Positions 60,123 to 64,000 of a stretch of DNA of 64,000 nucleotides are shown here, in pieces; positions within the stretch are counted from its first letter, which is position 1, and every line of letters begins with the position of its first letter. Source of the DNA: Flavobacterium sp. 140616W15 (GTDB taxonomy: Bacteria; Bacteroidota; Bacteroidia; Flavobacteriales; Flavobacteriaceae); contig NZ_CP033068.1 of the NCBI RefSeq assembly GCF_003668995.1, positions 3,906,001-3,970,000 on the forward strand. Reading direction: 5' to 3'. The translations under genes were made by a program, and so were the position numbers. The notes beneath the pieces are model-generated. The model searched no databases and had not been told where the DNA came from. It worked only from the letters and a program-made list of their open reading frames with translations.

Positions 60123-61760
60123 ATGGTCACGTTTTTCAAAAAAAAAATTATAATTCCTATTGTTGCAGCTGCGTTTTTATTCATTGGAACCAGTTTCAAA
60201 GATGACTTCTTTGAAATTGCCAAACAAATAGAAATCTTCACAACCTTATTTAAAGCTGTTAACACCAATTATGTAGACGAAACCAACCCTGGTGATTTAA
60301 TGGACAAAGCCGTTAAAAGCATGTTGGGGAGTTTAGATCCTTACACGGTTTACTTTAACGAACAGGATGTTATCAATTTTAAAATCAATAATACTGGGGA
60401 ATATACTGGAATTGGTGCTATGATTACTCGCAAAGCCGATCGATTAATTATAAAAGAACAGTATAAAGATTATCCTGCCGATAAAGCGGGACTTAAAGCT
60501 GGTGACGAAATCATTCAGATTGGTGATGTGTTAATTGCTGATTTCAAAGATGATGCTTCGCAATTGCTAAAAGGGGCTAAAAACACCAAAATTGCCATTA
60601 AATATATACGCCAAGGAAAAACCAATACTACTAATATTATTCTAGATGAAATAGATATCAAATCGGTTCCTTTCTATGGAATGATTGACTCAAAAACAGG
60701 ATATATTGTTTTGGCTCATTTTAGCCGTAAAGCTTCTGCCGAAACACAAAGTGCATTAGAACAACTTAAACGTGATGGTGCTACTCAGATTGTTTTGGAT
60801 TTGAGAGGAAATCCAGGCGGGCTTCTTAACGAAGCTGTAAACATATGCAACCTTTTTGTTCCGAAAAACGAAGTTATTGTAACTACAAAATCAAGAATCG
60901 AAAAACATAACAATACCTACAAAACAACCAAAGAGCCTATAGACACACAAATTCCATTGGCAATTTTGGTTAACGGAAGAAGTGCCTCAGCATCAGAAAT
61001 TGTTTCGGGAGCATTACAAGATTTAGATCGTGCTGTTGTTCTTGGAAGTCGCAGTTTTGGAAAGGGTTTGGTACAACGTTCTGTTGATCTTACTTACGGA
61101 ACTCAGCTAAAAGTAACTATTTCGCGTTACTATACTCCTTCTGGGCGCTGCATTCAGGCCCTAGACTATGCTCATAAAGACAAAAATGGTGTAGCTACAA
61201 AAACGGATGCTAAAAACTTTAATGCTTTTAAAACCAGAAAAGGCAGAACTGTTTATGATGGTGGTGGAGTTATGCCTGATATTGAATTAGACGACGCTAA
61301 ATTGAGTGCAATCACCAATGCTTTATTAAAAAACAACGGTATTTTCGACTATGCAACAAGTTACTATTATAAAAATCCAAATCTTGGAACTCAGATCCCT
61401 ACTCTAACCGATGCTGATTATAGTAACTTTAAACAGTTTTTAAAAACGAATAAAATCACTTTTGATACTGAAACTGAAACAGCATTAAAGAATACTTTGG
61501 CTGCTGCCAAAAAAGAAAAAATAGACGAAACGATTACTTCAGAATATCAGCAATTATTGAATGCCCTTGAAAAAAGTGAGACTACTTTACTTGACAAGAA
61601 TCAAAAAGAAATCAAGAATTTGATTTTAGAAGAACTAATAAAAAGATACCAATACCAAGAAGGTTTGTATCAATACTATATTAAAAACAACTCTGAGATT
61701 AAAAAGGCCGTTGGGGTTTTGAACAATCAAACGGAATATAAGTCAATCTTAAAAATGTAA
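60123..61760 (+). CDS. S41-family C-terminal processing protease
   Basis: A 545-residue exported serine protease of the CtpA/Prc type. The N-terminal hydrophobic segment (MVTFFKKKIIIPIVAAAFLF) is a signal or anchor. The PDZ domain spans about 90-170 (GEYTGIGAMI start). The catalytic dyad is S289 in GRSASASEIVSGALQD and K314 in SRSFGKGLVQ, 25 residues apart as in Prc. A long C-terminal helical region follows. Substrates are misfolded or tagged envelope proteins. Confidence 0.92.
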   Translation: MVTFFKKKIIIPIVAAAFLFIGTSFKDDFFEIAKQIEIFTTLFKAVNTNYVDETNPGDLMDKAVKSMLGSLDPYTVYFNEQDVINFKINNTGEYTGIGAMITRKADRLIIKEQYKDYPADKAGLKAGDEIIQIGDVLIADFKDDASQLLKGAKNTKIAIKYIRQGKTNTTNIILDEIDIKSVPFYGMIDSKTGYIVLAHFSRKASAETQSALEQLKRDGATQIVLDLRGNPGGLLNEAVNICNLFVPKNEVIVTTKSRIEKHNNTYKTTKEPIDTQIPLAILVNGRSASASEIVSGALQDLDRAVVLGSRSFGKGLVQRSVDLTYGTQLKVTISRYYTPSGRCIQALDYAHKDKNGVATKTDAKNFNAFKTRKGRTVYDGGGVMPDIELDDAKLSAITNALLKNNGIFDYATSYYYKNPNLGTQIPTLTDADYSNFKQFLKTNKITFDTETETALKNTLAAAKKEKIDETITSEYQQLLNALEKSETTLLDKNQKEIKNLILEELIKRYQYQEGLYQYYIKNNSEIKKAVGVLNNQTEYKSILKM

Positions 61761-61882: not shown

Positions 61883-62884
61883 TTATAAAGTGAGCCAATT
61901 AACTACATCTTTAAATACTTCATCCCAATGATAGCTATCCTCTAAAGGATTTCCGTTAGCATCAAATTCTTTCTTTTCATAATTATGGCTATAGTTAGGA
62001 TAAGCTTTGAGTTTTATATTGCTTTTTGGTAATAAGAAAGGTAGTAAATCATTGTGTGCTGAACCTATATCGGCCGATCCATACACAACCAATATTGGAT
62101 TTTTAAATTTTCGTAGGCTCTCATAACTCATATTTTCGTTATGACTCAACCAGTTATTAAAATTTACATTATCCTTAAACGCTATTTTATTTGCAGGAAT
62201 GTTTTTGTAATCATCTATTAATTTATCAATTTCTAATTGAGAAGCTTCATCATTATTTGTCCCAAAACCCTTAACTCGCTCACGCAAAATGCTTTCGGTT
62301 ACTCTATTAAAGGGATCTGCCGACATACAAACTAGTTTTGCAATTTTTGTATTATTCTCTGCTAGTTTACACGCTACTCTGTAACCTTCAGAATGTCCGA
62401 TAACAAAGATGGAATCTTTTATGGTCCTTTTATCACCATATAAATAGTTTATAACCGATTGTACCTGACTAACTCTGTATCCTAAATTATTGTTTTTTAT
62501 ATACTCTAGAGGTACTTCTCCGTTTGAATCTAGATAACCGTTTGCATCTTTATCGTAGCTACCGATTAAAGGAATTCCTTTTCTTGCAATAATGATAAAA
62601 TTAAATTTTTCAGAATACTCCTTAATACTAAACGGAATCAGAGAATTAGATACTTCTTGATCATAAAAAATTACTGGCAGAGGCAATGAACCTTGAATAA
62701 ACAAAATTGTAGGCTTTGGCACTTTAGAATCGCTTTTAGATATCAAAAAGACAATTGTATCGTTCTTTGACTTCAGGGATATTTTATCAAACCCTGCTTT
62801 TTGCAAATGGAAATCTTCTCCGCTTTGTGCATGCATAACAAAACACGAAAATGAAGCTATTATAAAATACCTAAGGATGCTCAT
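61883..62884 (-). CDS. Exported alpha/beta hydrolase
   Basis: A 333-residue secreted hydrolase with a signal peptide (MSILRYFIIASFSCFVMHAQ). The nucleophile elbow is VIGHSEGYR with S165. The likely acid is in VVYGSADIGSAHND and the histidine in NYSHNYEKKE. IARKGIPLIGSYD supplies the oxyanion region. The substrate is unknown. It is monocistronic. Confidence 0.82.
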   Translation of the reverse strand: MSILRYFIIASFSCFVMHAQSGEDFHLQKAGFDKISLKSKNDTIVFLISKSDSKVPKPTILFIQGSLPLPVIFYDQEVSNSLIPFSIKEYSEKFNFIIIARKGIPLIGSYDKDANGYLDSNGEVPLEYIKNNNLGYRVSQVQSVINYLYGDKRTIKDSIFVIGHSEGYRVACKLAENNTKIAKLVCMSADPFNRVTESILRERVKGFGTNNDEASQLEIDKLIDDYKNIPANKIAFKDNVNFNNWLSHNENMSYESLRKFKNPILVVYGSADIGSAHNDLLPFLLPKSNIKLKAYPNYSHNYEKKEFDANGNPLEDSYHWDEVFKDVVNWLTL

Positions 62885-63003: not shown

Positions 63004-63324
63004 TTAACTTTTAATCATTTCTATATGCGGGATATCATCTTCAAGATACATCTCATTAGTTTGTATAAAACCATGGCTTTCATAGAATTTTTTCAAATAT
63101 AATTGCGCTCCAACAGTGATATCGGTTTTACCAAAATGAGTTTTGATTCCTGCAATTGCTTCTGTCATTAAATCATGTCCCCATTTTTTATCCCGATAAT
63201 CCGGACTTACAACTACTCTTCCTATAGAAGCGCTATCAAAATCTAAAACATCAAAAATCTCATTATTCTTTTTATAAAGCATCATTCTAATTTGATTCCC
63301 TAAATCATTATTTACAATATCCAT
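63004..63324 (-). pseudogene. ElaA-type GNAT acetyltransferase, N-terminally truncated
   Basis: The 106-residue frame matches the C-terminal two-thirds of ElaA-type acetyltransferases: ASIGRVVVSPDYRDKKWGHDLMTEAI (acetyl-CoA site, spread over 32-57), ITVGAQLYLKKFYESHGF and YLEDDIPHIEM. A full ElaA is about 150 residues and begins with a block containing VFVVEQ and a CPYQD-like motif. That part is missing, and an in-frame TGA lies about 25 bp upstream of the ATG. No remnant of the missing part is seen in other frames up to the double-glycine peptide gene. It may be non-functional or a minimal variant. Confidence 0.72.
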
Positions 63325-63414
63325 TTTTTTGAAAAGTAAACAGAAAGGTCATTTAATTAAAAACAACCTTTCTTAAATTAATTGAATATAAAATTTAAAT
63401 TAAATACTTGGGCT

Positions 63415-63564
63415 TCAAATATATTGTCTAATACCGTCCCAAAAATGACACCAATCAAAATCTGCGGGAACATTACCTCCTTCTAGTTTAGCCAAGATCT
63501 CATCTTCTTGAATATTTTCGCTCATTTTTTTAAAATTATCTAAGCCTAACTTTCTGCTTTCCAT
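63415..63564 (-). CDS. Small peptide with double-glycine leader, candidate RiPP/bacteriocin precursor
   Basis: A 49-residue frame with ATG at 63562-63564. Residues 1-30 form a charged leader with the hydrophobic pattern LGLDNFKKMSENIQEDEIL and the cleavage-type end LAKLEGG (G29, G30). The remaining 19 residues, NVPADFDWCHFWDGIRQYI, are aromatic-rich with one cysteine. Double-glycine leaders are cut by C39-peptidase ABC exporters. No such exporter or modification enzyme is in the window, though the right edge is close. It sits between the truncated ElaA gene and a divergent XRE regulator. No homology search was possible. Confidence 0.6.
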   Translation of the reverse strand: MESRKLGLDNFKKMSENIQEDEILAKLEGGNVPADFDWCHFWDGIRQYI

Positions 63565-63745
63565 GTTTTTTTATTTTAAATTAATTATTAAAGAAAAAAA
63601 TCACAATCATTTCCTTGGTCTCTCCAGCGCAGGTTTAAAAGCAAATAATCACAATATCAAACAAACATATTTATGCTTTTTCTTACATTATTGGTTTTGT
63701 TTTTATTAATATTGTAAATAAATTATTCTATTTCTTACAATTCAT

Positions 63746-64000
63746 ATAAATAAGATTGGTCTTAAAATTAAAGCAAGAAGAAAAAATCAAGGATTATCGC
63801 AAGATAACATAGCATTTGAATTAGGTACTAATCAACCTTCTTATGCTAGATTAGAAAAAGAAGATGATAGAATCAGTATTACAAGACTAATAAAAATCGC
63901 AAATATTCTCAATACCTCAGTTTCAATGTTAATAAATGAAAATTTCGGCACTTTAGAAATTAACGAAAAACCTAAAGATTGTATTAGTAATATAGTCCAA
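63746..64000 (+). CDS. XRE-family helix-turn-helix regulator, partial
   Basis: The frame reads through the right edge. It encodes a Cro/CI-type helix-turn-helix: IGLKIKARRKNQGLSQDNIA, then FELGTNQPSYARLEKEDDRI and the helix TRLIKIANILNTSVSMLI. Such proteins normally start just before IGLK or similar. Here there is no ATG, GTG or TTG in frame at the expected place. The codon where ATG would fit (63746-63748) reads ATA, and the frame stays open upstream without a good start. The real start is therefore uncertain and coordinates are approximate. It diverges from the double-glycine peptide gene. Confidence 0.65.
   Translation, partial: MNKIGLKIKARRKNQGLSQDNIAFELGTNQPSYARLEKEDDRISITRLIKIANILNTSVSMLINENFGTLEINEKPKDCISNIVQ

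Follow-up and report, generated by a model that had tools for sequence, protein, structure and literature searches.

The peptide gene near the right end of the window, the 64,000-nucleotide stretch of DNA analysed here (positions 3906001-3970000 of the single-contig 4.94-Mb genome of Flavobacterium sp. 140616W15), is very probably what remains of a decayed RiPP-type cluster, that is, one for a ribosomally made, modified peptide. The start of an enzyme gene fused to part of another gene, an intact elaA nearby and a broken XRE regulator frame make a decayed peptide cluster the most likely reading, which rests on homology, gene order, predicted fold, the breaks and the fusion. Counting in its favor are the homology of the precursor, its invariant Gly-Gly and Cys-His pairs, the intact clusters of relatives, the fused enzyme start and the kinship of the XRE frame, together with the census of exporters in relatives, the fold of the enzyme, the broken XRE and elaA frames, the missing enzyme in the own genome, and a second fossil cluster in the genus.

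The precursor peptide is encoded by a 49-codon frame on the minus strand (63415..63564), recognized as an open reading frame and by a profile match. The frame, its leader end LAKLEGG and the single core cysteine were all as originally described. The double-glycine leader ends at residues 29-30, the core reads NVPADFDWCHFWDGIRQYI, and a Cys-His pair lies at residues 39-40. When the window and its right flank, 2111 stop-to-stop frames in all, were searched with a precursor profile built from 12 relatives, excluding the window, the peptide was found with an E value of 8.2e-10, and the next frame scored 3.6. Checked in relatives, both the frame and the GG are kept, and G29, G30, C39 and H40 are invariant in all 13 aligned precursors (window included). 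In 20,000 rounds of core shuffling, none placed a Cys-His in the first 16 residues across all 13, a control that overstates the independence of the precursors because they are mutually related; for single precursors the rate was 0.9% to 19.6%, and for the window core 4.6%. This last rate and the length of only 49 codons are what could be said for a chance open frame, a reading that is practically ruled out by the match to the window-excluded profile and by the expected neighbors on both sides.

Precursors were taken to be small double-glycine frames near the enzymes. The listings required a Gly pair or similar, and another required a Cys at most 14 residues after it without requiring His; frames without a Cys soon after the Gly pair were possibly overlooked by them. 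GG and CH also occur in three unaligned frames, one a remnant in the genome G849 and two in G985, and a similar frame in G845 was left uncounted, as it came only from a search requiring CH and lies approximately 5 kb from the enzyme. The best matches of the 13 precursors to NCBIfam had E values of 0.016 and 0.04 (two families, one member each), and the best to Pfam 0.045 (one member). The peptide search covered 299 genomes of the genus (own included) and 299 of the family. In the genus it gave two relatives besides the own genome, F. enshiense DK69 and F. amniphilum KYPY10. The family search gave the own genome and one weak match with three stops (G268), which was excluded, as was G194, one of nine genomes from the family search, where a stop interrupts the match and the frame it overlaps looks, by eye, of a different kind. 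The set of genome contigs searched with the window peptide gave no match.

Intact clusters are present in F. enshiense and F. amniphilum, where a protein of 400 or 402 aa comes after the precursor and, further on, a C39 peptidase/ABC exporter and an HlyD protein. The opposite strand in F. amniphilum encodes an XRE protein and a flippase (PF01943). The window has the same order of precursor and enzyme start as both Flavobacterium relatives. An exporter related to that of F. amniphilum (C39 domain, E 6e-34) was matched in 11 of the 14 relatives' loci; there was no match in L079, L080 and L115, and in L009 it starts only at residue 65. XRE matches were found in only three of the 14, in addition to an HTH_3 gene in L115. 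With other family members lying near C39-type exporters, the predicted double-glycine precursor with a divergent XRE gene is supported, but the idea of a small stand-alone module is not, since the window locus is incomplete relative to its relatives and its XRE frame is broken. As in known C39-processed double-glycine clusters (PF03412 exporters), the leader ends in GG and most relatives' loci encode the exporter; unlike them, the window locus has none, and E 0.016 is the lowest value at which any precursor matches Pfam or NCBIfam. A different Flavobacterium, G849 (L115), has a precursor remnant without the usual leader start, accompanied by pieces of the enzyme and of HlyD, with the exporter unmatched, and by its gene content this locus is a second fossil cluster of the same kind in the genus. 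Plasmid carriage of the F. amniphilum enzyme was rejected, as it had no match among 72,556 plasmid records.

Some of these loci encode further proteins. Two with GGILGACH or GGIMGACH precursors (L082 and L116) also contain aldo/keto reductase and methyltransferase genes, called by Pfam in L082 and by similarity in L116, where the enzyme frame is longer (549 aa). In L078 (7227-7949), an Rce1-like membrane protein (E 2.5e-5) is encoded between precursor and enzyme. Counterparts were identified by similarity in L009, L083, L085 and L115, that of L083 being Rce1-like weakly and below the cut-off. Such a membrane protein possibly serves self-protection.

The enzyme of the relatives is predicted to adopt the fold of an alpha-ketoglutarate HExxH oxygenase, with 10-12% identity to the solved HExxH domain of ChlB (8s5f) and to SjiH (22ob); by sequence there was no convincing match in the PDB. 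The HExxH motif itself was found in none of the 12 members examined. Ten have HQxxH instead and two have lost both His; a later Glu (position 317) is present in 10 of the 12 and is Asp in one. This alignment left out L079, where the frame has no N-terminus, as well as G849, G985 and G845. The NCBIfam model TIGR04267 gave a tentative match to one of the 12 (E 7e-4). The relatives' enzymes differ from the HExxH oxygenases of TIGR04267 by their HQxxH, and the window retains only the first ~30 codons of such an enzyme; the description of the HExxH oxygenases themselves is taken from PDB titles and the NCBIfam name. In L080 (8674-11346) and L081 (7814-10456), one precursor is flanked by two enzyme copies. 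One copy of each pair lacks both motif His, reminiscent of a catalytic subunit with its partner.

The piece of this enzyme left in the window is part of a GNAT-like frame of 106 aa (63004-63324, minus strand), which had been taken for an acetyltransferase without its N-terminal third. The GNAT domain is indeed incomplete: the best Pfam match is PF13673, of which positions 31-126 of 128 are covered, and the match to PRK10314 (ElaA) spans positions 43-148 of 153 with 63.5 bits, below the cut-off of 171. What stands in front is the start of the peptide-associated oxygenase-like enzyme (63234..63324, minus strand), identified by BLASTP and profile and running on into the elaA fragment, so this is not a simple loss from elaA. 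The first 37 residues share 9 of 22 aligned positions with the F. amniphilum enzyme (BLASTP E 1e-5, a single comparison). A profile of the enzyme N-terminus found the frame at E 2.8e-7, with the next-best frame at 0.072, and a profile of the whole enzyme at 4e-5, with the next at 1.3. The remainder (63004..63241, minus strand), identified by DNA identity, belongs to an extra elaA copy, whose 3' part follows the enzyme start in frame and shares 93% of its DNA, over 241 columns, with the genome's intact elaA. At the fusion point (63234-63241), TTTTGATA is common to the fragment and the intact elaA, and the enzymes of the three relatives inspected have GATTTTGA. Judged from these matches, the "truncated ElaA" is a fusion of an enzyme start with the 3' part of an extra elaA; its 3' part resembles the ElaA acetyltransferase of PRK10314, whereas its N-terminal part comes from another gene.

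The intact elaA (148 aa, L002:8518-8964) is located 4.2 kb to the right in the extended locus L002, which covers 4.4 kb to the left of the peptide and 15 kb to its right. Between it and the fragment is a third, broken copy (L002:7042-7477), 92.4% identical to the intact one. The original prediction, in which elaA lost its 5' end to the insertion of a small complete peptide/regulator module, has in its favor that the peptide and XRE frames adjoin the elaA fragment, but it is very unlikely, as a simple insertion is ruled out by the intact copy elsewhere, the fragment is an extra copy behind an enzyme start, and the module is incomplete relative to relatives. The extra copies differ by ~7% from the intact elaA, compared with 11% for the elaA of the nearest relative, which would fit their import from relatives.

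The regulator diverges from the peptide gene as originally described, and the frame contains an HTH_3 domain (E 3.2e-12), but it is a remnant rather than a complete gene (63746..64000, plus strand, ending ~45 bases past the window). It has no ATG, GTG or TTG start codon, with ATA where the F. amniphilum relative starts, and it stops early, within a stretch of T. Out of seven XRE/HTH proteins compared, the closest is that of the intact F. amniphilum cluster (35% identity, E 2e-19); the other six gave E 1.9e-6 or weaker. Between the broken elaA copy and the peptide there is also a gene, by eye flippase-like, whose pieces lie in several frames. The flippase genes of F. amniphilum and G350 both belong to PF01943, and the split pieces gave one weak match to the F. 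amniphilum flippase (E 0.009). As a member of the cluster, this gene beyond XRE was rejected, its two longer pieces having no Pfam match. A probable second HTH remnant is located at L002:6689-6913, on the basis of short matches (68% over 25 residues) to HTH proteins that relatives encode at this position; its sole Pfam match is to another family.

The start of the enzyme remnant is separated from the peptide gene by a terminator-like hairpin of 13 pairs followed by a T-rich stretch (63342..63373, minus strand). A terminator scan of the window end (1.1 kb) gave one where 0.2 were expected. Of the 12 loci folded (window included), 11 have a hairpin after the precursor, with differing sequences and without a shuffle control; L084, where the gap is 19 bases, has none, and L079, L081 and L117 were left out of the folding. 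Bacteroidota promoters follow a different consensus from the sigma-70 one, and a scan with the latter gave nine sites where 7.5 were expected, close to chance. Known RNA families were not found near the peptide.

Both the hairpin and the peptide frame are unbroken, which counts against decay, as expression may persist, and so do the span of the enzyme match, ~30 codons, the few XRE matches in relatives' loci and the lack of this cassette at the corresponding site of the 30 relatives examined. The peptide might thus still be used, expressed and exported in trans by another C39 exporter, unmodified, as a signal or competitor. The intact frame with its leader and GG, the hairpin, and C39 domains elsewhere in the genome favor this: five matches were found in four neighborhoods, two of them in proteins of 716 and 723 aa. 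The checks suggested originally had a mixed outcome: the frame and its GG are kept in relatives, and the genome does encode C39 domains, but none lies near the peptide and L002 gave no exporter match. Continued use is unlikely, in that the regulator frame is broken, no enzyme was found in the genome, and the 716- and 723-aa exporters already have their own double-glycine peptides beside them. Such peptides were listed near three of the four C39 neighborhoods. Searches with enzyme queries found no full oxygenase-like enzyme in the own genome, nor did TIGR04267; the enzyme-query searches missed the fused piece too, and are thus insensitive to short remnants. The window cluster itself has only the ~30-codon start fused to the elaA fragment. 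Elsewhere in the own genome (3662000-3681000, L089), ten small frames of 48-72 aa, mostly with double-glycine leaders, adjoin a C39 exporter split into two frames, flanked by eye by rimM and an acyl-CoA dehydrogenase gene. The Cys-His cluster of F. enshiense (L006) sits between neighbors similar to these.

The decayed cluster is situated in what is most likely a gene-exchange site, judging by the comparison of relatives. One edge is an S41 peptidase gene (60123..61760, plus strand; PF03572, E 2.6e-50) and the other is the intact elaA, outside the window. An elaA match was found in 56 of 61 genus genomes (own included). Of the 55 others, 30 were examined, the 29 best-scoring and G338, the next in the list, and all 30 have elaA and S41 together. 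In 25, the interval holds nothing or only OmpA-like genes, plus a transporter-like gene in two; the OmpA-like call is by PF00691 for L067, the sole one tested, and by eye for the rest. Three of the 30 have double-glycine peptide cassettes at the site (G302, G347 and G350) and two have other cargo (G340 and G354); the window's cassette was absent from this site in all 30. The G302 cassette encodes a 50-aa peptide, a 156-aa protein and a hydrolase, and those of G347 and G350 a peptide, a radical-SAM protein (domain found) and a hydrolase.

The window also encodes a neighboring alpha/beta hydrolase-like protein (61883..62884, minus strand; weak NCBIfam match, no Pfam match over the cut-off), which is 68% identical to the hydrolase of the G350 radical-SAM cassette at the same site (L093:3340-4353), and a hydrolase outside the window is 90% identical to that of G302. 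From these identities to the G350 and G302 cassettes, the site in the own genome seems to retain parts of more than one cassette. A 50-aa VGGGNSSGSC peptide, a 156-aa protein without a Pfam match and a hydrolase are encoded together at this site in the nearest relative examined (L066 10544-12157). Radical-SAM cassettes between elaA and S41 in L093 (3340-7908) and L075 (6736-9660) have peptides ending in THAESTYVRK or TYTESTYVRR, and the radical-SAM enzyme of L093 is nearest to YhhB, below its cut-off. The radical-SAM peptides of Bacteroidota described by TIGR04149 share the short GG leader, but their enzyme and core differ and the window peptide has no match to TIGR04149; the same-site peptide of G350 matches it weakly (E 0.0076, 16.1 bits against a cut-off of 25).

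We propose the following for regulation, for what the hairpin does, for the modification and where it occurs, for cleavage after GG and for the order of events. In intact relatives, XRE, where encoded on the other strand, would control the double-glycine precursor, and the hairpin after it would lead to more precursor than enzyme. The oxygenase-like enzyme would modify the core around the invariant Cys-His pair, and the C39 ABC exporter with its HlyD partner would cut after GG and export the product. The enzyme start in the window may have become linked to the 3' part of an extra elaA copy through recombination at a few bases common to both, and the exporter would have been lost, leaving only the precursor, the hairpin, the enzyme start and the broken XRE frame.

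The cluster class most likely lacks a name in the family libraries searched, with the window copy as a fossil. More tentatively, and with well under even confidence, the intact relatives may represent an unnamed Bacteroidota peptide class in which a divergent HQxxH oxygenase acts at the Cys-His pair, the window being its fossil. If so, the HQxxH enzyme could, for example, hydroxylate His or link thiol and imidazole, and the fossil would sit where peptide cassettes come and go. The intact family is of more interest than the remnant in the window, which is minor: a precursor family in which Cys-His follows GG is now defined, along with a matching enzyme for whose fold there are solved structures to compare. 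The findings suggest that such clusters decay into orphan precursor frames resembling small modules, and that some Flavobacterium genomes have differing peptide cassettes at the elaA-S41 site.
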